64,000 nucleotides of DNA from Anaerolineae bacterium (GTDB lineage Bacteria > Chloroflexota > Anaerolineae > Aggregatilineales > Phototrophicaceae): NCBI GenBank assembly GCA_023382675.1, contig JAHDWN010000021.1:1-64000 (forward strand). The letters are read 5' to 3'. Within the stretch, counting starts at the first letter, position 1. Each line of letters starts with the position of its first letter. A program made the translations under genes and the position numbers. Below the pieces are notes generated by a model, which ran no database searches, was not told the DNA's origin, and was given only the letters and a program-made list of their open reading frames with translations. This document shows positions 4,876-43,362 of the stretch, in pieces.

Positions 4876-5221
4876 AAGACCGCACTCGCTTGCTAAGGGC
4901 ATGATCCGGCAACCCAGATTGTAGCCGATCACGCTGGACAAGGCGAAAGAATGCGCAAGTCGGTGCTATCAGTGTGTCGGGCGATCTTTGAGACAAAAGA
5001 CGAGCTTCAAACCTGACATAGGAATGTGTGCGTGATGCAAGTGGAGGATAGCGAGCGATGGCGAAAGCATAGCGGTTCTTCCAGACGCGCCATCGTTGAC
5101 GAACACCTTGTCCCGTTACTGCCTGCACATGGCAGATTGGACGCCAATCAAGGCCGGGAGCACCTGATCCGCTCGTAAAGAATTAGTGCAGCGTAAATCA
5201 GATCGGAGCCGAGTGATACAA
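4876..5221. other. Intergenic region between lutB and pstB
   Basis: About 400 bp lie between lutB and pstB. Apart from the candidate -10 element of lutB (minus strand, 4918-4923) and the pstB terminator at its far end, no convincing gene, repeat or structured RNA was found. Confidence 0.5.
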
Positions 5222-13626: not shown

Positions 13627-14301
13627 TCACGCATGGGTTTCCGTGCTCGGTGATGGCACTGTTTCCGGTATCTCCGTTTTAATACCGAGCGCCCACCACA
13701 TGCCAAAAGCTGACAGGGTGTAACACATCCGCGCCATTTCCTCGGCGCTGAACTGCTTTCCTGCTTCCAACCACCAACTGATGATGCCGATTTGTGTACC
13801 TGCCACGGCATGTGCAATCAGTTCCACAGGCAAACGCGGCTCGCCACCTGCCTGTGACGCTGGCTGCACAATCTGTTCCTGGAAGATCTGAGCCAGGTAG
13901 CGACGCACCTTCACGACGAAAGAGGCCACACCTTTTTCGCTCAATAACACACGATAGAGGTTCTCATACTCGGCGACGTGCTCAAAGTCGGTCGCTTCCA
14001 TGCACGCATCATGATTCCCCGCCATGATCTGTTTCAACACGTCCTGGGGATCGTGAAAGAAATGTACCTTTTCTGCCAGGTCGTCATAGAGTTCACGCAT
14101 ACTGTTGAAAAGCAGTTCCTCCTTATCTCGAAAGTGGAGATAGAACGTGGCTCTGCTGACATCTGCGCGATCAGTGATGTCCTGCACCGAGATCGAATCG
14201 AAGCCTTTTTCGACGATCAATTGCATCAGAGCATCGCGCAGGAGCCTACGGGTGCGGCGCTGGCGGCGGTCGAGCGGCTTTTCCTCAGATTTCATAGACA
14301 C
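13627..14301 (-). CDS. TetR-family transcriptional regulator
   Basis: This 224-residue protein has an N-terminal TetR helix-turn-helix (about residues 14-62) with the recognition stretch DITDRADVSRATFYLHFRDK. A divergent helical ligand-binding domain follows, ending near 205, with Trp-rich helices (WWLEAGKQF, GMWWALG) that could form a hydrophobic ligand pocket. It is transcribed away from the cytochrome P450 gene. The shared 109-bp region carries a 9+5+9 palindrome covering the P450 -35 element, so it most likely represses the P450 gene and possibly itself. The inducer is unknown. Confidence 0.88.
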   Translation of the reverse strand: MSMKSEEKPLDRRQRRTRRLLRDALMQLIVEKGFDSISVQDITDRADVSRATFYLHFRDKEELLFNSMRELYDDLAEKVHFFHDPQDVLKQIMAGNHDACMEATDFEHVAEYENLYRVLLSEKGVASFVVKVRRYLAQIFQEQIVQPASQAGGEPRLPVELIAHAVAGTQIGIISWWLEAGKQFSAEEMARMCYTLSAFGMWWALGIKTEIPETVPSPSTETHA

Positions 14302-14410: not shown

Positions 14411-15823
14411 ATGTCTGACATGGCTATCAAGCGCGCTGTCCCTGGCCCGAAGCCTGCTCGCAATCTGCTTGAGCAACTGCGACTGATGTCACAGTTCGAC
14501 CACGATACGCTCGGAATGATCCAGCGTGGCTTCGACACTTATGGGGATGTCTGGCTGATCGAGGCTGGCAAGATGCAGCAGTTCATGTTCCGGCATCCCG
14601 ATCACTACCACGAGATTCTCGTCACCCAGGCATCCAGCTTTCACAAAGACCTGAACTACAAGGATCGCAAAAAAGGGCTGGGGCGCTTTATGGGCAACGG
14701 CCTTGTGACCAGCGATGGCGAATTCTGGAAGCGCCAGCGCAAGCTCATCCAGCCTGCGTTCCATGCCCGACGCATCGAGGCTTATACCCAGGCGATGGTG
14801 GACATCACCCTTGGACAGATCAACGATTGGCGAGACGGCGCTGTTATCGAAGTCTCCGAACAGATGATGGAAGCGACGCTCAAGGTCGTGACCCGCTCTG
14901 TTTTCGACGTGGACATCACGCAAGCCACTCGCACAATTGGCGACGCCATGACCACCTTTCAGAACATGTCCAACAATCAGAACCAGATGATCCCATCCTG
15001 GGTGCCGACGCCGCTGGAGCTGAAGACGCGGCAGGCGCTCCGTGAGATGGATGACATCGTCTATGGCCTGATCCGTGCGCGGCGCGCCTCTGCGCATGAC
15101 CGGGGCGATCTTCTGTCGATGCTGCTGGAAGCGCGCGATGACGATGGCAGCGGTATGACCGACGAGCAGATCCGCGACGAACTTGTCACCCTGTTCCTGG
15201 CCGGGCACGAGACGACGGCCAACAGTCTGAACTGGACGTGGTATCTCCTCGCCCAGCATCCTGAGGTCGAAGCCAGGCTCCACACAGAGCTTGATACTGT
15301 GCTGGCCGGGCGCGCGCCGTCTTTGCAGGATCTCAAACAACTCACCTATACCGAAATGATCATCAAAGAGTCGATGCGTCTCTATCCGGCGGTCTATGCG
15401 ATTGGCCGCCAAGCCACTGAAGATGTCGAGATCGGCGGTTATCGCGTCCCGAAAGGCGCAAGCGTCGGTATCTTCAGCTTCGTCACCCATCGCGACCCCC
15501 GCTGGTGGGGTGCTGATGCCGGGCAGTTCAAACCGGAACGGTTCGCGACGGAACAAGAAGCGCAGATCAAGAAGTATGCCTATCTGCCCTTCTCGACCGG
15601 CCCGCGCATCTGCATCGGCAACAGCTTTGCCATGATGGAAGCGCACCTCATGCTGGCGACCATTGCGCAGCGCTGGCGGCTCCAGCTTCAGCCGGGGCAG
15701 GCGGTCGAACCTGAGCCATTGATCACCCTGCGACCCAAAGGTGGCTTGCACATGATCGCGACTGCCAGAACACCTCAGGCGGTCGCGAAGGCCGCTCCAC
15801 AAGCGGAACCTCTGCCTCTGTAG
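14411..15823 (+). CDS. Cytochrome P450
   Basis: The 470-residue protein starts at ATG 14411 or 14420. It carries the I-helix oxygen-activation motif AGHETTAN near residue 260, the K-helix ExxR (ESMR) near 320, and the heme-binding loop FSTGPRICIG with the thiolate Cys at residue 401. It is soluble, with no membrane anchor, and needs separate redox partners, none of which is adjacent. The WT of the I-helix follow-on and the PERF segment (KPERF) are typical of fatty-acid or xenobiotic hydroxylases of the CYP102/CYP4-like branch. The substrate is unknown. Control by the divergent TetR protein is likely. Confidence 0.94.
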   Translation: MSDMAIKRAVPGPKPARNLLEQLRLMSQFDHDTLGMIQRGFDTYGDVWLIEAGKMQQFMFRHPDHYHEILVTQASSFHKDLNYKDRKKGLGRFMGNGLVTSDGEFWKRQRKLIQPAFHARRIEAYTQAMVDITLGQINDWRDGAVIEVSEQMMEATLKVVTRSVFDVDITQATRTIGDAMTTFQNMSNNQNQMIPSWVPTPLELKTRQALREMDDIVYGLIRARRASAHDRGDLLSMLLEARDDDGSGMTDEQIRDELVTLFLAGHETTANSLNWTWYLLAQHPEVEARLHTELDTVLAGRAPSLQDLKQLTYTEMIIKESMRLYPAVYAIGRQATEDVEIGGYRVPKGASVGIFSFVTHRDPRWWGADAGQFKPERFATEQEAQIKKYAYLPFSTGPRICIGNSFAMMEAHLMLATIAQRWRLQLQPGQAVEPEPLITLRPKGGLHMIATARTPQAVAKAAPQAEPLPL

Positions 15824-34966: not shown

Positions 34967-36844
34967 TCACGCCAGCGGGAACAGCCAGGGCAGCGCCAAC
35001 AGCGACACGACCAATCCCAACACAATCAATGGCACGCCGACACGCACGTAATCATTGAACTTGTAGTTGCCCGCTCCGATCACGAGCGTATTCACGGGTG
35101 ACGCCAATGGAGTGGCAAACGCCATGGACGACGCGACGGCAACGGCCATCAAGAATGCCTGCGGTTGAGCGCCCAACCGCTGTGCAGTGACCAATGCCAG
35201 CGGGGCAATTAGTACGGTCGTCGCCGTATTCGACAGCACCTGCGTCAGAACGACTGTGAGCACGAATAGTCCGGCCAGCACCGGCACCAGGCCGAGCTGC
35301 CCCAGCGTATTGACGAAGCCGCCGGCGAATAGCTCGACCAGCCCGACTTTTTCCAGCGCCACGCCCATTGGCAGCATCCCGGCCATCAATACCAGGCTTC
35401 TGAGATCGATGGTTTCATAGGCATCGTCGATTTTCAAGCAGCCGGTGACCACCAGCCCAAGCGCTGCGATCAGGCTGGCGGGCGCGAGATCGAGCACGTT
35501 GAGCGCGACCAGCAGCACCATGCCGGTCATAAGTAGCAGGGCGATGGGCGCTTTGCGCGGCTGCGTAAACGCGCCGAACTCCAATGCTTCCGGTTCGCCC
35601 ATGACGATGAAATCCTGGCGCAGTTGCTTCAAGTTGAAGATATGCTTCCATTCGCCCTGCACCAGCAGCACATCACCAAACTTTAACGGCGTATCCTTCA
35701 CGTTCAGCACTGCATCTGTGCCGGGACGCCGGATCTCCATTACCGTCAGGCGATAGACTGTCCCGAACTGGATCTCGCTGAGTGTCTTGCCGATCAGTGG
35801 CGACCGCGGGCGGAGCAGCACTTCGGCAATCCCGACTTCGTTGGTGATGATGTCACCCTCTGCGACCGGCTCCGCGGCCACGATCGCCAGCTTCAGCGCG
35901 CCGGATGCTCGGCCAACATCCTCCGCGCGCCCTTGAACGAGCACGACGTCGTTCGTTTGCAGGCGAGTATCTGCGCGTGGCGTTTGCCGCGTGACCGCGC
36001 CGCTCCTCGGCCAGGTCGTCAGCCATGAAGGCTCGTCAGACGCGCCGTTAATGATCGACACCACGTTCAGATCATAGGCCTGGCGCAGCCCGCTGTCACC
36101 CAGGCTGCAACCGACCAGTGGCGAGTCGTCCTGTACGCGCAAACGGAATAAACTACCCGGTAATTCATAGAGTGTGAAGAGTTCGCCAGGCGTGATGACG
36201 GACTGTGTCGTTGTTTCAGCTTTGCGCTCCGGCAGCCAGTACCGGCCAATACCGACCATGTAGATCATGCTCACGGCCAGCAGCAGCAGGCCAATCGGCG
36301 CGAAGCTGAAGAAATCGAATGGCGCGTATCCGGCGGCGCTCAATGCCTCGGATACCAGCAGATTTGGCGGCGTGCCGATGAGTGTTAGCGCGCCGCCCAT
36401 GAGCGCGCTGAAGGCCATCGGGATGAGCAGCCGCGAAATCGGCACCCCCATGCGGCGGCTCAGGCTGACCACTGCTGGCAGCATCAGGGCAACCACGCCG
36501 GTCGAACTGATAAATGCGGACATCACTGCTGTAGACGCCATCAGCACCGCCAACAACCGCGTCTGATTGCCGCCAGCGATTTTGAGGATGCGCGCTGCAA
36601 TCGCTCCGGCCAGCCCGGTCTGGAAGATGGCACCACCCACGATGAACAACGCCGCGATGCTGATCACGGCTTTGTTGGAGAAGCCTGCCAATCCCTCTTC
36701 GATGGTCAGAATGCCCGTCACCATCAAAGCGATCATTACGCCCAGCGCGACCACGTCGAGACGAACAATTTCCGTGACGAACAAGATCAGGGCGACGACG
36801 AGAATGAGCAGGGTAATCCACATATCAGGCGTCATCAGAGGCAT
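34967..36844 (-). CDS. SLC13-family permease with two TrkA-C domains
   Basis: This 625-residue protein has two blocks of membrane helices (about residues 5-205 and 425-625) of the DASS/ArsB-type ion transporter superfamily. Matching hairpin motifs occur in each block (SSTGVVALMLPAVVSLS with TLIGTPPNL, and SNTATTVLIAPLALV with ATPLASPVNTL). The cytoplasmic middle (about 215-410) contains two TrkA-C-like domains (DDSPLVGCSLGDSGL and PRSPLIGKTLSEIQF), each ending in a DVLLVQG-type strand. The family imports sulfate, dicarboxylates or similar anions with Na+. Its location next to the sulfur operon makes sulfate possible but not shown. Confidence 0.88.
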   Translation of the reverse strand: MPLMTPDMWITLLILVVALILFVTEIVRLDVVALGVMIALMVTGILTIEEGLAGFSNKAVISIAALFIVGGAIFQTGLAGAIAARILKIAGGNQTRLLAVLMASTAVMSAFISSTGVVALMLPAVVSLSRRMGVPISRLLIPMAFSALMGGALTLIGTPPNLLVSEALSAAGYAPFDFFSFAPIGLLLLAVSMIYMVGIGRYWLPERKAETTTQSVITPGELFTLYELPGSLFRLRVQDDSPLVGCSLGDSGLRQAYDLNVVSIINGASDEPSWLTTWPRSGAVTRQTPRADTRLQTNDVVLVQGRAEDVGRASGALKLAIVAAEPVAEGDIITNEVGIAEVLLRPRSPLIGKTLSEIQFGTVYRLTVMEIRRPGTDAVLNVKDTPLKFGDVLLVQGEWKHIFNLKQLRQDFIVMGEPEALEFGAFTQPRKAPIALLLMTGMVLLVALNVLDLAPASLIAALGLVVTGCLKIDDAYETIDLRSLVLMAGMLPMGVALEKVGLVELFAGGFVNTLGQLGLVPVLAGLFVLTVVLTQVLSNTATTVLIAPLALVTAQRLGAQPQAFLMAVAVASSMAFATPLASPVNTLVIGAGNYKFNDYVRVGVPLIVLGLVVSLLALPWLFPLA

Positions 36845-36897: not shown

Positions 36898-36963
36898 ATG
36901 CAGGGATTGTTCGGAAACGAAGAAAGATGCTTTTTTTCGATGGGGATTATATACGCAAAGAGA

Positions 36964-36989
36964 CCGGCGCTGACACCTGTCAACGCCGG
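36964..36989 (-). terminator. Terminator of the sulfur operon
   Basis: CCGGCG and CGCCGG, with inner TGACA/TGTCA, form an almost perfect 11-bp stem with a 2-nt loop, 42 bp after the last operon stop. It is followed by TCTCTTTG on the minus strand. Confidence 0.7.
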
Positions 36990-37031
36990 CCCAAAGGAGG
37001 AGGAAACACGTTTTCGTTGCTAAGAGATGGC

Positions 37032-38264
37032 TCAGCCGCAGCCGCCGCTGGTGGGACCTCGTTTCAGTTCGAGTTGAATCCTCGGTGTGAACTCGATTGG
37101 GAACATGTCCGGATTCGGGTTCGCTGCGGGATCTCGTGATCCGAGTGCCACGGCAAAAGTGTAGCCAAGTTGATCGTCCACATGCACCGCCCGCTGGTTA
37201 TCCGCCTTGAAGGTGGCATCCGCATAGGTCGCAATCCAGTTGTTGATACCTCCCTCCAGGATATAGACGTTAGGCACACTCTCGGCTCTCAACATGCGCC
37301 AGGCTTCGGTGGCTTGAGTCTCGTCATTGCTCATGACCACGAAGACAGTATTTGCCGGTTGGAAATGCATTTCCGCCACATTATCCAAGAGTCGATCGAG
37401 CGGTATGTGATGCGCATCGATCAGATGGAACTCGTTGAAATCCGATTCGTCGCGCACGTCAATCATATAGGCGACCAAACGCCGGTCGGACATCGTTTGC
37501 AGCAGTTCCGCCGGATGGATCTGTACGGCTCGTTCGGTCAGTTTGGCGTCTTCTTGCGGCGCAATGCTCGCCCACTTGTCCGCGTTGGTCGGCTGGCCGA
37601 TCAGCAGCCCGGCTATCGCTATCAGAACTGCCACACCCGCAAGTGCAAAGCGGTATCTCGGTTCCTTGGAGGTGTCCATCTTGCCGATGTATTTCTCGGC
37701 AAGTTCTGCGCCGAAGAAGGCCAGCAGCGCGATGAGCACCAATGCGAGAACGACAACGCCGGTGTCGGCATTGAACAACTCCGGCAGGGTGAAACGCCCC
37801 ATGTATGACGAGTACCAGAAGTCCTCGTACAAGCCGACCGTCTCGCCGAACAGGAAAATGCCGAAGAACACACCAAGCGCAAAGACGATGCCGTCAAGTT
37901 TCAGCGTCGCTGCCGAAACGAGCGAGGTGCCTGGGCAAAAGCCGCCCAGGATGAAGCCGAACCCCATGATCAACCCGCCGAGGATGCCCGGCCACAGGTA
38001 GGTGGGATTGACCCAGATCAGATTGTAGTCGAGCAGTCCGAGTGCCGAAGTCAGGAAGATGAGCACCATCGCGCCGATGATGGCCCCGAACATCACCTTG
38101 AGCACGGTCATCTCTTTGAAATAGAACTGCGCTGCCAGTTTGGTCGATTTGCCAAAGCCCGCGATCTCAAGCACGTAGCCGAAGGCAAAGCCGATAATCA
38201 TGTAGACGACATAAGCGCCCCATTGGCCGAGAAGGCTCTGAAGTGGAAGTGGAAATGGTGCCAC
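37032..38264 (-). CDS. YeeE/YedE sulfur transporter half fused to a rhodanese-like domain
   Basis: This 410-residue protein starts at a GTG with GAGGAGG 7 nt upstream. Residues 15-225 contain six or so membrane helices, with the YeeE/YedE-type motif GGFCPGTSL near 106-114; its Cys is the conserved sulfur-handling residue of the family. Residues 245-360 are rhodanese-like (DVRDESDFNEFHLIDAHHIPLD). The expected active-site Cys loop is instead VVMSNDETQATEAW, so classical sulfurtransferase activity is doubtful. The tail ends in GGCG, offering another Cys. It is the last gene of the cytochrome operon, 12 bp after the other YeeE/YedE half. Confidence 0.85.
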   Translation of the reverse strand: MAPFPLPLQSLLGQWGAYVVYMIIGFAFGYVLEIAGFGKSTKLAAQFYFKEMTVLKVMFGAIIGAMVLIFLTSALGLLDYNLIWVNPTYLWPGILGGLIMGFGFILGGFCPGTSLVSAATLKLDGIVFALGVFFGIFLFGETVGLYEDFWYSSYMGRFTLPELFNADTGVVVLALVLIALLAFFGAELAEKYIGKMDTSKEPRYRFALAGVAVLIAIAGLLIGQPTNADKWASIAPQEDAKLTERAVQIHPAELLQTMSDRRLVAYMIDVRDESDFNEFHLIDAHHIPLDRLLDNVAEMHFQPANTVFVVMSNDETQATEAWRMLRAESVPNVYILEGGINNWIATYADATFKADNQRAVHVDDQLGYTFAVALGSRDPAANPNPDMFPIEFTPRIQLELKRGPTSGGCG

Positions 38265-38276
38265 GATTTTGCCTCC

Positions 38277-38849
38277 TCAGTTCCACAGCCGGCGCACAAA
38301 ATACGCCAGCAAATAGCCACCGCCAAAGACGGCCAGCATGAATGCCCAACTGCCTACCGACAGCACAGCGCCGCCGGAAAGCGCCTGCCCGGATGTGCAG
38401 CCACGGGCCAACCGTGCGCCATAGCCCATGAGCGTGCCGCCGGCGAAGGCGAAGATCAGGCGAGTGCGATTCGAGATGCGCGGCCCTTTGTTGACCTCTA
38501 ACTTAAGCCGTCCGTTGCGCCAGCCGGAGACAAATCCACCGGCGACGGTGCCGATGGTCATGAAGACCACCCAACTATCGAGCGGGTTCTTGTCGCCACC
38601 CGCCATGTCGATCAGATAATGCACCCGGTCGATGTGGCCCGGCGCGACCAGATCTTCAAAGTAGACGAGCAGGCGGTTCATCCCACCGGATGCGCCCAAC
38701 CCGTTACCGGTGATAAAGAAGGCGAGAAACAGCACTACCCCCAGCAGCGCGCCTGCAAAATAGGGATTCACATATGGTTTCTCGATCCGCCGGGCAGCAG
38801 TTCCTGCTTCCGCCCGGTTCTGTGGCATCGTGCGATTGAACGTGGTCAT
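38277..38849 (-). CDS. YeeE/YedE-family sulfur-compound transporter half
   Basis: From ATG 38849 this is a 190-residue protein with four to five membrane helices. The signature YGARLARGCTSGQALSG near residues 140-156 is the conserved Cys motif of YeeE/YedE proteins, which move thiosulfate or related sulfur species. Its ATG overlaps the TGA of the cytochrome gene (ATGA), showing tight coupling. With the next gene it would form a two-part transporter, like the PmpA/PmpB pair associated with BigR-type ArsR regulators. Confidence 0.88.
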   Translation of the reverse strand: MTTFNRTMPQNRAEAGTAARRIEKPYVNPYFAGALLGVVLFLAFFITGNGLGASGGMNRLLVYFEDLVAPGHIDRVHYLIDMAGGDKNPLDSWVVFMTIGTVAGGFVSGWRNGRLKLEVNKGPRISNRTRLIFAFAGGTLMGYGARLARGCTSGQALSGGAVLSVGSWAFMLAVFGGGYLLAYFVRRLWN

Positions 38850-41446
38850 GTCGCCATACCCTCCTCTCCGATAGATGGCTCTGAACCTACATGTTCTTCG
38901 ACTTGATCCCAGCCGAGCATCATCGCTTTGATGTTCGCCATGGGTGTGTGGCCGGTTGTCGTCAGGTAGACGTGCATGACGATGAACGATGCAAACAGCC
39001 AGGCAATCAACGTATGGAACGGCGCAAGGAAAGGCAGCCCGCCCAATTGCTCGGTCAGGCCGGGCAGACGCTGCGCGCCCCACAGAAGTGCGCCTGTGAT
39101 CACTTGCAGTGGCAGCAGCACATTCAGAATACCGAAATACGTCAACTGCTGCAGCGGATTCAGCTTGCGTTCCGGCGTCTTATCAAACGGATGGGCTTCG
39201 CTGCGGAAGATGCCGCCCAGGTAGTACTTGGCCTGGACGATCATCTGGTCGAAGAAGCCATACGGGCGCGGCAAATACTGGCGGATCTCGCCGCTCACCA
39301 GATGATAGAACAGCGATAGGGCAGCATTGATAACCAGCAGCAGCGCCAGCGCGTTGTGGATCAGGACGACGCCGCGGAAATCGAACATGCTGAACTGGTT
39401 CGGGCGGTGGATCACCAGGCCGGTGAAGAGCAGCCCGAAGATCGCGACCGTCTGCAGCCAATGCCATTGGCGCTCATAGATGCTGTACATGTAGACCTGG
39501 CGCACGGCTGCTGGCTGATGTACTACTGCGCGGCGCGCCGCCAGATAGCGCAGCCCGCCGTGAATGATCACACCAGCAAAGACACCCAGGAACAGCAGCA
39601 TCCCAAGCAGATCGATCCAGCCCACGGCATCGTGTCCGAGGACGTAGAGATTGACTGGTGGGGCACTGCTCATCGGTTGATAGTAAAGCGATCCGTCATC
39701 ACGGCGGGCAAAGGTGCCGCTCATGACGCCGTCGCTCCCGATAACCGTCGGTTCTGCGCCGCCGGGCACATAACTGCTCAGCACGATCGGCGCGTTCACA
39801 CGCGAATCCTCACCATGGCACGTGTGACATTCGCGTGTTGCCCACTCGCCCTGGGTCACGTCGTGGTGGATGGCATACGGCTGGACTTCGCCAGTGATGC
39901 GCGGATTCTCCAGCCCACTCGCCGCCAGACGCTCAGCAATCAATGTCACCTTGGTATCGCTGTCGAGCGCCAGTTCAGACGTGTCCAGCGCGCCATCGCC
40001 GTTTGCATCAAAGGCGGTGACGATTTCAGGTGCATAGGTCGAGCCGTCGAGCCAGACCTCACGCAGATCGTCGATCGTAACGGGGCGCCCCGGCTCGCCG
40101 TAGACCCAGTACCATGCGCTCACCAGATTGTAGGGTGTGAGCTTGTTGTCGTCTTCCATCCCCGCAGGCAGCAGCACCGGTGTAAACCCAGTCAACAGGG
40201 TGTTACCGTTGTCCTGCACCACGCCGCGATACGTGACTACCGGCTGCCCATCTGGGAGCAGGGCGGTCCAGTCAACCGACTCCACGGCAGGGCCATACAG
40301 TTCCGGCACATGACACGTCTCGCAGGCCAGCGCATTGATGTGGCGTTCCGTGTAGGGCAGCCAGGTATGCGTCGATCCCGCATCATGGCAATTCACGCAC
40401 GTCCGTTCGGAGCTGCCAAAATTGGTGGTCGTCTCTGCATCGGTGTTGGCGAACTCGTGCAGCGGACGATAGAGATAGTCGCCAAAGTCCATCCGGCGCG
40501 GATCGAAGTTCAGATGCTCGGGCCGCGTAATTGGCGCTTCGGTCTCGAAGACAGGATTGTTCAGCGCGTAGTGGCAGTCAACGCAGTTGACCACGCGCTC
40601 GGCATGAACGTCGAATGAACGGGCGAGTGTCGTCTTGTCCGCCAGATTCAAGCCGCTGTTGCTCATGCGCTGCGGCGAGAAAATCTGTCCGGTGGTCAGC
40701 GTATTCCACTGAGTTTCGTCACCAACCGCTGCCGCCAGCGGCGTCTGTGCATCACTGTGCACCAATCCGTGACATTGCCCGCAGTTCTGGTCGGACGGAT
40801 CTTGCACCAGAATCAGATCTTCGCGGACACTGCCATCTTCATTGAAGGCTTCCGGCAGCCAGCGCCAGGTTTGTCCTGACTGCTCGACGATGCCCGTCCC
40901 TATGAGCGTCGCGCTGCTGGCCCAGGCGTAATCAGCGTCGGCCAGCGCGCCGATGCGTGCTTGATTATTAGGCGCTGCCGTGTGACAGAGAAAGCAGTTC
41001 ATTTCCACCTGGTCGGCGACCGGGCCGCCGCCGACATGCCGCGCACCGTATGATTGGATCCAGTCATCTGGCGATGCGACGCTGTACGTGATCGGATTCC
41101 AACCGCCATACAGGCCGTCGCTTGTCTCCCAGGTGCGTCCTCCGGCAACATCGCCCGCTGCGACGGCGGCACTGAATCCGGCATCGGCGTGACTGCTGTG
41201 GCTGGCGATGAAAGCGGTGTCGTGACACTCGCCGCAGGTGCGTATTGTTGATGCCGGCGCACCTGATTCGAGCACGTTAACGCCCTCAGCATCCCGCAGT
41301 ATGAAGGCGGGGTGAAAGCTGGGATCTTGTTCTTCCTGCGCCGTGGCCGGGCTGCTCGTGAGCAGCAGGAGGCCGGCCACCAGAAACACGACGCCAAAGG
41401 TACCGAGAATATAGAGCGAGGTTATCCTACGATGATGTGCAAACAT
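38846..41446 (-). CDS. Seven-heme cytochrome c fused to a membrane cytochrome b
   Basis: From ATG 41446, behind GGAGG, this is an 866-residue protein. A signal/anchor helix lies at 10-30. Seven CxxCH heme c sites follow at 71, 151, 222, 288, 350, 375 and 540. An EF-hand-like loop DANGDGALDTSE at 480-491 suggests Ca2+ binding. Residues 608-840 are a b-type membrane domain with four to five helices and several conserved His (HRPNQF, IHNALAL, FYHLV, FHTLI, MHVYL), as in cytochrome b561/formate-dehydrogenase-type subunits. It would link the quinone pool to outside heme c chains. It lies 14 bp after the octaheme cytochrome gene. Confidence 0.9.
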   Translation of the reverse strand: MFAHHRRITSLYILGTFGVVFLVAGLLLLTSSPATAQEEQDPSFHPAFILRDAEGVNVLESGAPASTIRTCGECHDTAFIASHSSHADAGFSAAVAAGDVAGGRTWETSDGLYGGWNPITYSVASPDDWIQSYGARHVGGGPVADQVEMNCFLCHTAAPNNQARIGALADADYAWASSATLIGTGIVEQSGQTWRWLPEAFNEDGSVREDLILVQDPSDQNCGQCHGLVHSDAQTPLAAAVGDETQWNTLTTGQIFSPQRMSNSGLNLADKTTLARSFDVHAERVVNCVDCHYALNNPVFETEAPITRPEHLNFDPRRMDFGDYLYRPLHEFANTDAETTTNFGSSERTCVNCHDAGSTHTWLPYTERHINALACETCHVPELYGPAVESVDWTALLPDGQPVVTYRGVVQDNGNTLLTGFTPVLLPAGMEDDNKLTPYNLVSAWYWVYGEPGRPVTIDDLREVWLDGSTYAPEIVTAFDANGDGALDTSELALDSDTKVTLIAERLAASGLENPRITGEVQPYAIHHDVTQGEWATRECHTCHGEDSRVNAPIVLSSYVPGGAEPTVIGSDGVMSGTFARRDDGSLYYQPMSSAPPVNLYVLGHDAVGWIDLLGMLLFLGVFAGVIIHGGLRYLAARRAVVHQPAAVRQVYMYSIYERQWHWLQTVAIFGLLFTGLVIHRPNQFSMFDFRGVVLIHNALALLLVINAALSLFYHLVSGEIRQYLPRPYGFFDQMIVQAKYYLGGIFRSEAHPFDKTPERKLNPLQQLTYFGILNVLLPLQVITGALLWGAQRLPGLTEQLGGLPFLAPFHTLIAWLFASFIVMHVYLTTTGHTPMANIKAMMLGWDQVEEHVGSEPSIGEEGMAT

Positions 41447-41460
41447 GTGTTGTCCTCCAC

Positions 41461-42891
41461 TTAGCGCCTTCGCCCGCCCCATTCCATGGGATCGCCGTAG
41501 TAGCCAAGTGCCTGCCAGTCCATTCTCCCGTTATCGCTGTGACAATCGGTGCATTGGAGTGCATAGTCAGCCGGCTGTACCATGTGCGTGATCGGCCAGT
41601 ACATGGACGTTTCTGCGAACCCGTAATTGCCGCTGTAGGGAAGCCCTGCAGCCAGCGAACCATTGCGCAGTGCGCTGTCCCAATCGAAGGTTGTCCAGTA
41701 GCCTGTTTCGCCCACGGTCTGCGGCTGCAAGAGAATGTTGTAGACGGTATCGTAGGGCTGATTTGCCAGGTGAATCTTGAACGGGAAGATCAGCGAACCG
41801 GGATCGTCCATGCTGCCCAGAGGGTGCGCGAGCGACGTCACGCCATCAGGATCGATCTCGTCTCCCATCAGGTAGTGCTGGCCCGTACCGTTGTACCAGG
41901 CATATTCAGGCGTGAAGTTCTCTTCGTAGACGAAGCTGCCTTTGATGCGTAGATACTCGTGCGGGTCTTCCTCACGATTCGGATCGCCTGCTTGTGACCA
42001 ATCCCATTCCATCTTGGTTGGGTCACGTCGAGCGGCTGTCGGGATGTGGCACGTCTGGCAGGCAACACTGTCGAGGTGCGCCGTGATGCGCTCATCTTCG
42101 TGCAGCGTCGCCGGTTCGTGACAGTCCGTGCAGTAAACTTGGTTGGCGTTATCGACGCTGACCGAGATGGAACGCCCTGCAACGCTGTGATTCTCTGTCC
42201 GATGGCAGTCGGTGCATAGGAAATCAGCGCGTCCCATGTGTACGTCGAGATTTTCCGACGGGAAGTACAGACTCTCGTCGAGATCGCCATGCTTGACGCC
42301 ATTACCGCCGCCGCCGTTGAAGTGGCAGCTACCACAGTTCACGCGGGTAGGGACGCCAACGCTCTGAGCAGCCGCTGCCAGATCGACACCTTCAGCCGGG
42401 AGACCTGCGCCAGCCTTGACATAGCCCCCAGATTGATCGTGGCAGACGAGACAATCGACGTTATCCGTATTGCTGAAGTCGAAATCAGCGTTGTTCCAGC
42501 CGTAACCAGCATGACAACGCGTGCAGCCCTGCCAGTTGGATTGCACGCCGATACAGAAGTTATTCAGCGTATTGGCTTTGCCGATGGACACCGGTTCTTC
42601 GCTCCAGGCGACTTCGACCGGTGGGCTTTGCCACGTCCAATGCACGGTCTGCGCGACTTCGTGCGCTGCATCCTCGTGACAGGCCAAACATGCCCTGGTC
42701 ACAGCCGGGCCGTCCTCATAAGGCCCCGGCATCAGCTCAGTATGATCAGTATGCACCGGGTGCGTAGGCAGAGAATCCCACGCTGAAGCTGTGGCAGCGT
42801 TGTTTGGCGTCAGTGCCAAAATGATGACACCGGCAACCAGTAAAAGTGTGCCAACTAACCCCAGAACCCAGATATAGCGAAAAGATCGCAT
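41461..42891 (-). CDS. otr: Octaheme tetrathionate reductase-family cytochrome c
   Basis: From ATG 42891, behind GGAGG, this 476-residue protein has one N-terminal anchor helix (6-27) and eight CxxCH sites at 68, 123, 147, 186, 226, 254, 278 and 447. The spacing, the NNFCIGV segment at 111-117 and the large heme-free stretch before heme 8 match octaheme tetrathionate reductase (OTR) of the Shewanella type. In OTR the active heme has Lys as ligand, and Lys105 in SIGKANTLNNF is a candidate here. The family reduces tetrathionate and also nitrite and hydroxylamine in vitro. Its partner is probably the next gene. Confidence 0.88.
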   Translation of the reverse strand: MRSFRYIWVLGLVGTLLLVAGVIILALTPNNAATASAWDSLPTHPVHTDHTELMPGPYEDGPAVTRACLACHEDAAHEVAQTVHWTWQSPPVEVAWSEEPVSIGKANTLNNFCIGVQSNWQGCTRCHAGYGWNNADFDFSNTDNVDCLVCHDQSGGYVKAGAGLPAEGVDLAAAAQSVGVPTRVNCGSCHFNGGGGNGVKHGDLDESLYFPSENLDVHMGRADFLCTDCHRTENHSVAGRSISVSVDNANQVYCTDCHEPATLHEDERITAHLDSVACQTCHIPTAARRDPTKMEWDWSQAGDPNREEDPHEYLRIKGSFVYEENFTPEYAWYNGTGQHYLMGDEIDPDGVTSLAHPLGSMDDPGSLIFPFKIHLANQPYDTVYNILLQPQTVGETGYWTTFDWDSALRNGSLAAGLPYSGNYGFAETSMYWPITHMVQPADYALQCTDCHSDNGRMDWQALGYYGDPMEWGGRRR

Positions 42892-42928
42892 AAATCCTCC
42901 AACACCGCGAACGGATCCCATTACAGCG

Positions 42929-43252
42929 TCAGGTCAATTTGCTCGCTCGCGCTTCCAAAACTCCACGCAGCACCTGGCGCATCGTGTCAAGTACGTCAAT
43001 AATCCGCGTATCTCGTATTCGATAGATGACTGCTGCCCCCTCCCGTTCGTTGATAACCAGGGATCGCTCGCGCAGAATCCCCAGATGGCGTGACACAGTC
43101 GGCTGTGGCATACCTAGCATGTCTGCGAGCGCCGAAACGTTCATGGGTTGCTCGTGAAGCGCATACAGAATCTGAATCCGCTTGGGATCGCCAACGGCGG
43201 TGCAAATTTGCTGATGCAGCAAACTCAACTCATCCAGGGTTGGGATATTCAC
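42929..43252 (-). CDS. ArsR-family regulator of the sulfur operon
   Basis: The GTG at 43252 with GGTGGAG 8 nt upstream gives a 107-residue protein of normal ArsR size. Longer in-frame starts up to 43327 would run through a palindrome and the candidate -10. The winged helix includes VSALADMLGMPQPTVSRHLGILRERSLV. One Cys remains near residue 17 (HQQIC) from this start, and a second (VCVV) exists only with upstream starts. The two-Cys persulfide switch of BigR/SqrR is therefore not clearly present. It is the first gene of the operon, 37 bp before otr. Confidence 0.85.
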   Translation of the reverse strand: MNIPTLDELSLLHQQICTAVGDPKRIQILYALHEQPMNVSALADMLGMPQPTVSRHLGILRERSLVINEREGAAVIYRIRDTRIIDVLDTMRQVLRGVLEARASKLT

Positions 43253-43267
43253 GACGCATACTCCACC

Positions 43268-43285
43268 TATTCGCATATCCGAATA
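43268..43285. promoter_or_regulatory. ArsR-type operator palindrome
   Basis: TATTCG-catatc-CGAATA has perfect 6-bp arms and a 6-nt centre. It sits 16 bp upstream of the arsR GTG, next to a TATGTA element (43289-43284), so autorepression is likely. Confidence 0.6.
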
Positions 43286-43338
43286 CATACCAGTATCCAT
43301 CGGGACACTGTTCTGGCGGAACGACAAGTGTCATATGC

Positions 43339-43362
43339 AATATGTGATTTATTTCACGTATT
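43339..43362. promoter_or_regulatory. CRP/FNR-family binding site
   Basis: AATATGTGA and TCACGTATT form 9-bp arms with one mismatch and a 6-bp centre, close to the CRP consensus TGTGA-N6-TCACA. It is centred about 73 bp upstream of the predicted operon start, a usual class I activator position. Confidence 0.6.

Follow-up and report, generated by a model that had tools for sequence, protein, structure and literature searches.

A conserved gene cassette joins an octaheme tetrathionate reductase family cytochrome to a heptaheme/cytochrome b fusion and a two-part YedE transporter with a predicted carrier arm

An Anaerolineae genome (GenBank assembly GCA_023382675.1) carries, on the first 64,000 nucleotides of contig JAHDWN010000021.1 (hereafter the window), five minus-strand genes (43252 to 37032) that encode, from 5' to 3', an ArsR-type repressor, an octaheme tetrathionate reductase family cytochrome (OTR), a heptaheme cytochrome c/cytochrome b fusion, and the two halves of a YeeE/YedE transporter (YedE1 and YedE2), the second of which continues into a rhodanese-like domain. 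The last four genes form a conserved cassette whose final protein ends in a Gly-Gly-Cys-Gly motif. We propose, with about even confidence, that the cassette would be a self-contained membrane module combining redox chemistry on carrier-bound sulfur with transport, in which quinol electrons would reach OTR through a dead paralogue of OTR itself. The crystal structure of an OTR has been available since 2004, and the biological role of the enzyme is still called cryptic. An original prediction, made from the DNA of the window, had reported the five-gene run, and we find it at the place claimed, as follows:

42929..43252, minus strand: arsR, ArsR/SmtB-type repressor, GTG start (PF01022 57 bits, NF033788 83 bits)
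41461..42891, minus strand: otr, octaheme tetrathionate reductase family cytochrome (TIGR04315, match to 1sp3, eight CXXCH)
38846..41446, minus strand: heptaheme/cytochrome b fusion (seven CXXCH; PF01292 77 bits)
38277..38849, minus strand: yedE half 1, C-terminal half of YeeE/YedE, PmpA-like (PF04143 87 bits, profile positions 160-309)
37032..38264, minus strand: yedE half 2, N-terminal half, PmpB-like, with pseudo-rhodanese and GGCG tail (PF04143 48.5 bits, profile positions 10-196; PF00581 53.2 bits)

The intergenic distances of the original prediction (37, 14, -4, and 12 bp) were reproduced with starts backed by alignment or position, namely the OTR Met at 42891, the fusion Met at 41446, and the yedE1 ATG at 38849. 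The OTR start is Met11 of a 486-residue reading and is invariant in 16/16 aligned sequences.

Conservation of the cassette

The five genes had been put forward as one unit. A check of synteny across Chloroflexota and other phyla finds OTR, fusion, YedE1, and YedE2-rhodanese in this order in all 70 loci with at least 5 kb downstream, with ArsR outside this core. These loci belong to a set of 96, composed of the best 80 of 458 relatives of an Anaerolineae OTR alignment among named genome contigs, 15 loci from Chloroflexota genome draws, and the window; the 26 others were too short for the 5-kb test and show no contrary order. The figure describes one clade of OTRs, not all OTRs. The four-gene set occurs in Chloroflexota, Gammaproteobacteria (Vibrio gelatinilyticus, Lysobacterales, and others), a member of the Planctomycetales, and two KSB1 bacteria. 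In Vibrio gelatinilyticus it is flanked by genes for a DEAD-box helicase and an alpha/beta hydrolase, which suggests that the four genes suffice.

Among 400 Chloroflexota genomes drawn, 16 (the window's own included) have an OTR over the cut-off, and in the 15 others the fusion and both YedE parts adjoin it in the same order. Conversely, an alignment search with YedE2-rhodanese returns the same 16 genomes, with 15 full-length copies and one truncated where its contig ends; beyond these it finds a broken copy in the genome G096 and, in eight other genomes, matches to one part only. Within the class of Vibrio, full-length YedE2 is found in one of 339 genomes (the Vibrio itself), and ten others have the membrane part only. 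No DNA matching the OTR patterns was found in viral contigs, and among plasmids two records gave only partial matches to the transporter halves. The broken copy in G096 (L182, contig C18, 7276-9002) is made up of pieces of the fusion, YedE1, and a split YedE2 that retains the GGGCG end; this genome has no OTR match.

In the literature, we found neither the four-gene set, nor a GGC arm on a YeeE protein, nor a cytochrome b fusion with a dead OTR, in a search outside which subscription papers mostly fell.

A predicted carrier arm on a split transporter

Both halves match PF04143, in line with the two-part transporter originally predicted, and split YeeE-type transporters (PmpA/PmpB) have been described (PMC11582611). 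The RGCTSG motif of YedE1 is present in 82/82 copies and Cys110 of YedE2 in 59/59 aligned sequences, so that residues which, matched by motif to the TsuA numbering, would be of the Cys91 and Cys293 type are both present in the halves. The rhodanese assigned to the second half is confirmed as a domain (PF00581), and not as an enzyme: the catalytic position 312 is occupied by Ser in 47 sequences, Gly in 11, and Asp in one, and by Cys in none of the 59, which rules out an active rhodanese.

37230..37514, minus strand: rhodanese-like domain without catalytic cysteine (alignment of 59; fold Z 13.4 to 3tp9_A)
37035..37046, minus strand: C-terminal Gly-Gly-Cys-Gly motif of carrier-arm type (alignment and tail counts)

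The GGC of the tail is invariant in the 59 aligned YedE2, the last residue being Gly in 57, Ser in one, and Ala in one. Contig ends truncate four of the 78 copies scoring over 350 bits; all 74 others have a GGC(G/S/A) ending, which in two includes an extra Gly. Where the C terminus is present, the GGC is found in 74 of 75 copies, and the 75th has a UGA at the codon of the arm cysteine. Such tails are rare, as they end only 76 of 4208 open reading frames (at least 100 residues) in the loci examined; 74 of these are this protein, and the two others are a SoxY and a 130-residue frame of no known meaning.

All 58 of 58 YedE2 proteins entered alignment and structure prediction. The predicted model (mean pLDDT 81) displays six long membrane helices and a rhodanese fold, with pLDDT below 50 for the tail (residues 403-410). 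The Lys plus Arg values of the loops are 3.6, 1.0, and 4.8 on the predicted inside versus 0.3, 0.1, and 1.2 outside, in a charge count for which two split helix segments were merged by hand, and this pattern places rhodanese and tail outside the cytoplasm. The tail is thus predicted to be a flexible, extracytoplasmic arm of carrier type. In SoxY, sulfur intermediates are carried on the cysteine of a swinging arm (PMC5336275), and the NCBI model TIGR04488 bears the name SoxY_true_GGCGG. SoxY was found elsewhere in 0/16 cassette Chloroflexota genomes and in none of 14 control genomes of the same run; a second SoxY run, serving as positive control, was positive in 3/12 genomes, one of them a cassette genome (G404).

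In-frame UGA codons at cysteine positions

Two YedE2 genes (in loci L103 and L114) appear split; the breaks are in-frame UGA codons at cysteine positions and not frameshifts. In L103 one UGA falls exactly at the transporter cysteine that aligns with Cys110 (GGF-UGA-PGTS) and another exactly at the arm cysteine (GGG-UGA-G), followed by a UGA stop (UGA sites at 14116-14118 and 15049-15051); in L114 the transporter cysteine is again concerned (5184-5186), and the tail is a normal GGCG. Read through, neither gene has any other internal stop. A scan of all loci examined for such sites returned only these two, three other pattern matches lying off the gene. A selenocysteine tRNA (tRNA-Sec) scores over the cut-off in 13/13 genomes asked, including those of L103 and L114 and the window's own, and in 5/14 control genomes. 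Behind the UGA of the tail lies a strong hairpin (z -3.19), possibly a terminator. Judging from these sequences, the UGA codons probably encode selenocysteine. Since the exchange of cysteine for selenocysteine falls precisely at the arm and transporter sites, it points to reactive nucleophiles there and speaks for a chemically active arm. YeeE or rhodanese proteins with selenocysteine may have been described before, as two selenoproteome reviews contain both words (PMC9312934, PMC13188914).

A TGA also lies inside matches to a YedE half in four Chloroflexota genomes, at sites with no OTR (G248:C33:13585-14139, G028:C59:45399-45941, G297:C16:135013-135540, and G318:C66:74833-75354); these homologues are possibly further selenoproteins.

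The OTR enzyme and OTR loci without the cassette

The cassette OTR scores 568.5 bits with TIGR04315 (cut-off 375) and 476 bits with PDB 1sp3 (Shewanella oneidensis), and with its eight CXXCH motifs it belongs to the family to which it had been assigned. It has one non-heme cysteine, Cys123, and a hydrophobic N terminus that by eye looks like a membrane anchor; in a quick tree its nearest named relatives are Anaerolineae and Aggregatilineales.

42511..42525, minus strand: CXXCH of the presumed catalytic heme 2, C133-H137 in the 486-residue reading (1sp3 alignment; invariant in 16)
42292..42294, minus strand: Lys210, presumed heme-2 ligand (opposite 1sp3 Lys153, counted by hand; invariant in 16/16)
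42553..42555, minus strand: Cys123, sole non-heme cysteine (opposite 1sp3 Cys64)

We take the heme-2 lysine of 1sp3 to be the residue numbered 153. Catalysis by OTR has been assigned to heme 2, with a conserved lysine as ligand (PMC11024163), and OTR genes have been reported from Anaerolineae bins (PMC7887784) and from a set of metagenome-assembled genomes including Desulfolinea (PMC8359478). For the Shewanella OTR, reduction of tetrathionate, nitrite, and hydroxylamine is on record (PMC4484225). The latter two activities would suit a nitrogen function, in which OTR would serve detoxification or ammonification by reducing nitrite or hydroxylamine and the transporter would carry something else; since in the cassette OTR always comes with a thiosulfate-type transporter and a motif of sulfur carriers, we regard this as the least probable of the alternatives considered here.

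We also examined 23 OTR loci without the cassette, 21 from the class of Vibrio (where OTR is over the cut-off in 29/369 genomes), one from a KSB1 genome (L181), and one from an unplaced bacterium (L180). YedE1 is found in none of them and full-length YedE2 in none. A heme-free cytochrome b frame adjoins OTR in 19/23, and a cytochrome b has also been noted near OTR in Thermosulfurimonas dismutans (PMC4911364). In two of these loci (L200 and L201) OTR is preceded by a three-domain rhodanese and followed by soxY (PF13501 102 and 104.5 bits) and soxZ (PF08770 72 and 79 bits), and the SoxY tails read GGAGACG and GGAGGCG. In lucinid symbionts, too, soxY is reported beside otr (PMC11237559). Two settings at least thus bring OTR together with a cysteine arm rich in Gly, which is the strongest hint that it acts on carrier-bound sulfur.

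In the quick tree (67 rows chosen from 122, with L181, which lacks KHG, dropped, and with the non-OTRs L185_9440 and L190_3772 as an accidental outgroup), the OTRs of L200 and L201 fall inside the other clade and the cassette OTRs stand apart, two rows being unresolved; the cassette OTRs need two changes (L115 and L122 stand apart), so that their single origin is neither shown nor excluded.

These observations bear on the proposal, in line with the original prediction, that OTR would reduce free tetrathionate and YedE would import the thiosulfate; the tail would then have a minor or structural part. The tetrathionate activity of the Shewanella enzyme and the cytochrome b near the Thermosulfurimonas OTR are in its favor. 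It leaves unexplained why the GGC tail is kept and the sulfurtransferase cysteine gone in 59/59 sequences, why in one copy a UGA falls exactly at the arm cysteine, and why soxYZ stands beside other OTRs, and we consider it rather unlikely.

Some OTR loci show further arrangements. In L201 (5484-9769) OTR and cytochrome b are joined in one 736-residue protein, ahead of soxY and soxZ. A second OTR, of the other clade, lies upstream of the cassette in L116 (938-3220) and L084 (5647-7329), the former being one 760-residue reading frame with 15 CXXCH. A divergent OTR relative with 10 CXXCH is found without the cassette in a genome of the same phylum (L047, 7272-9050, genome G106).

An apparently dead OTR fold fused to cytochrome b

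The seven CXXCH and the PF01292 domain of the predicted fusion are confirmed, and the seven-heme part is recast as what seems to be a dead OTR-fold domain, which replaces the idea of a generic multiheme wire on the basis of structure and profile alignments.

39620..41323, minus strand: apparently dead OTR-fold heptaheme domain, residues 54-621 of an 878-residue reading (structure and profile alignments)
38918..39487, minus strand: cytochrome b domain (PF01292; 1kqf_C Z 13.9)

Seven CXXCH are counted in 87/88 long homologues, and six in one. Alignment and structure prediction were fed with 63 of 68 listed fusion proteins. The predicted model of the heptaheme domain matches 1sp3 with Z 14.2 (rmsd 3.9 over 341 residues; VIA), the only match covering this domain among the 50 listed, and 1sp3 is also its best solved structure in Foldseek (E 2.5e-5). 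Profile comparison with OTR gives a local match over four hemes (98.5% probability); in a forced global alignment (99.4%) the seven hemes of the fusion pair with OTR hemes 1 and 3 to 8, and the heme 2 motif, the lysine, and the free cysteine of OTR have no counterpart. On these sequences and models, the domain would be an OTR fold that is catalytically dead. The cytochrome b is of the formate dehydrogenase/hydrogenase/PhsC kind (Pfam, NCBI model, and structure match), and of a quinone-reacting type (PF01292), in agreement with the quinone side foreseen for the fusion. The heptaheme domain also contains a canonical EF-hand-like loop, DANGDGALDTSE (window 39974-40009, minus strand), a pattern found in 78/88 long fusion homologues.

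A proposed mechanism and its direction

In the reading that we favor, quinol (probably menaquinol) would be oxidised at the cytochrome b domain, and the electrons would pass through the fused heptaheme wire of OTR fold to the catalytic octaheme OTR. The sulfur substrate would be offered to OTR on the cysteine of the GGCG arm, on the outer side of the two-part YedE transporter, with the inactive rhodanese domain as a cradle or docking platform. A mixed disulfide could arise between the arm and the conserved free cysteine of OTR, presumably near heme 2. For the arm cysteine of SoxY, loading by tetrathionate as an S-thiosulfonate is expected (PMC5336275). In the probable cycle, the reaction of a polythionate such as tetrathionate with the arm cysteine would likewise yield an S-thiosulfonate, which OTR would reduce, and the thiosulfate (or sulfite) released at the mouth of the transporter would be imported through the YedE pair. 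The arm as OTR substrate, the sulfur species, and the reductive direction are inferred. This direction is favored by low heme potentials: the working range of MmcA, a cytochrome of methanogens, is -100 to -450 mV, and that of OTR is comparable (PMC11024163).

An oxidative version would have OTR take the place of SoxAX and conjugate thiosulfate to the arm cysteine, with electrons flowing via the heptaheme-cytochrome b protein to quinone and YedE importing the bound sulfane for cytoplasmic use. The GGC arm itself and the soxYZ neighbors of other OTRs would fit such a scheme, as would the YeeE relative SoxT1A, which delivers sulfur to the cytoplasm, possibly from SoxYZ (PMC11582611); where no SoxY was found (the 16 cassette Chloroflexota genomes), the arm could replace it. 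Yet low OTR-type heme potentials make a poor acceptor for thiosulfate (PMC11024163), and the cytochrome b is similar to the subunit of thiosulfate reductase (126 bits with NF011582, short of the cut-off of 204), and we judge this version unlikely.

Several points weigh against our reductive, arm-based reading. We found no biochemistry of cassette members in the literature, the activities of the Shewanella OTR on tetrathionate, nitrite, and hydroxylamine were reported without any arm (PMC4484225), and 21 of the 23 cassette-free OTR loci have no GGC-type carrier in the stretch examined. YedE2 has no SoxY domain (PF13501; Pfam scan, E 0.01), residues 81-160 of its model reach a pLDDT of 58-67 only, and its topology is the charge count with hand-merged helices described above. 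Downstream of the internal UGA codons there is no convincing selenocysteine insertion element (SECIS; fold z -0.98 and -0.28). Foldseek superposes the heptaheme domain only loosely on 1sp3 (rmsd 12.5; TM 0.37 by target), although a second aligner and the profile alignment agree on the OTR fold. Lastly, the direction of the electrons could be reversed.

More generally, OTR enzymes may natively act on arm-bound sulfur, with the arm on the transporter handing the product to the uptake channel and selenocysteine as an upgrade in some lineages, a generalization to which we give slightly less than even credence. If true, OTR would gain a physiological substrate, and the cassette would be a new kind of reductase-carrier-transporter unit. 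The cassette suggests a testable substrate for OTR, arm-bound thiosulfonate, and a possible wiring of OTR to the quinone pool; from it one would expect many uncultured Chloroflexota, and one named Vibrio strain, to respire or take up sulfur by a new route.

Regulation

In Chloroflexota, the ArsR repressor and a regulator of the CRP/FNR type would control the cassette. The CRP/FNR-like site and the ArsR palindrome that had been noticed ahead of the genes are real, as supported by comparison across relatives, in which both operators are conserved; this supports the compact regulated unit of the original prediction.

43268..43285, unstranded: ArsR operator, TATTCG-N6-CGAATA (15 bp before the arsR start)
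43343..43358, unstranded: CRP/FNR-like palindrome TGTGATTTATTTCACG, TGTGA-N6-TCAC(A) (comparison of upstream regions)
36961..36992, minus strand: terminator-like hairpin (-26.6 kcal/mol, z -4.46)

With a consensus derived from the window itself, at least 11 of the 12 fixed bases of the ArsR operator are found in 48/65 arsR upstream regions versus 1/1300 shuffles (all 12 in 26/65), and at least nine of the 10 fixed bases of the CRP/FNR-like site in 38/65 versus 5/650 shuffles; for both operators, the 65 regions include close relatives and amount to fewer than 65 independent cases. The FNR consensus proper (TTGAT-N4-ATCAA) is weak at most (at least nine of 10 fixed bases in 3/65 regions versus 7/650 shuffles).

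Among loci with at least 600 bp upstream, the gene arsR precedes OTR in 49/58 named Chloroflexota and in 15/22 without a phylum name, the latter including the window and the 15 Chloroflexota draws; L038, missed by the distance rule, has arsR as well. In the 15 related Chloroflexota loci, ArsR lies ahead of OTR in 14, and L033 has arsR at the far end on the opposite strand. With the same 600-bp minimum, arsR is ahead of OTR in none of the 10 Pseudomonadota loci and is also lacking there in the one Planctomycetota locus, so that we rejected ArsR as part of a universal core. ArsR has a single invariant cysteine (C17, alignment of 16), and ArsR repressors of the BigR type sense through two cysteines; a BigR-type sulfur sensor was discarded accordingly (39 bits with the BigR model versus 155), as was TsoR (59.8 bits versus a cut-off of 115), and a literature search pairing TsoR with ArsR had no match.

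The regulator gives rise to a further alternative, in which YedE and its arm would report external reactive sulfur to ArsR, and OTR and cytochrome b would remove that sulfur. It would be in keeping with the conserved arsR and operator of the Chloroflexota-type loci and with SoxT1B, a YeeE-type protein that signals to the repressor SoxR (PMC11582611). Its weak points are the loci that lack arsR ahead of OTR and the cost of two large cytochromes for a sensor; we hold it to be very unlikely, and retain the redox and transport module as the preferred reading.

Downstream of the last gene, the strong terminator of the original prediction is borne out as a hairpin, which lacks a long T run and is not listed by the terminator scan. 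A DASS/CitMHS-type anion permease with TrkA_C domains follows directly (window 34967-36844, minus strand); no blastp match to it was found beside the cassette in 15 related Chloroflexota loci.

Comparison with known systems

The cassette OTR shares with the 1sp3-type enzyme the eight CXXCH, the equivalent of Lys153, and the single free cysteine, and differs by its company, the heptaheme-cytochrome b fusion and the YedE pair. Like PmpA/PmpB and TsuA, the transporter consists of parts matching the C- and N-terminal halves of YeeE proteins with one conserved cysteine each; its halves are longer (190 and 410 residues versus about 130), and the second bears an external pseudo-rhodanese with an arm. 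That arm, C-terminal, predicted extracytoplasmic, and ending in Gly-Gly-Cys-Gly, resembles the one of SoxY (PF13501, TIGR04488), but is carried by a pseudo-rhodanese fused to a transporter half instead of a SoxY domain. The otr-soxY pairs of lucinid symbionts likewise place otr beside the gene of a SoxY carrier, with SoxY and SoxZ as separate genes and, in the parts of that report available to us, no mention of a transporter or heptaheme fusion (PMC11237559). Finally, MmcA of methanogens is an OTR relative without heme 2, and mmcA is encoded with Rnf genes (PMC11024163). The fusion domain is, like MmcA (TIGR04314), a heptaheme OTR relative lacking the catalytic heme; it differs in its low score with that model (49.5 bits versus a cut-off of 250) and in being joined to cytochrome b. 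With MmcA as the first example, the heptaheme domain would thus be a second OTR-type fold that has lost its active site and turned into an electron wire.

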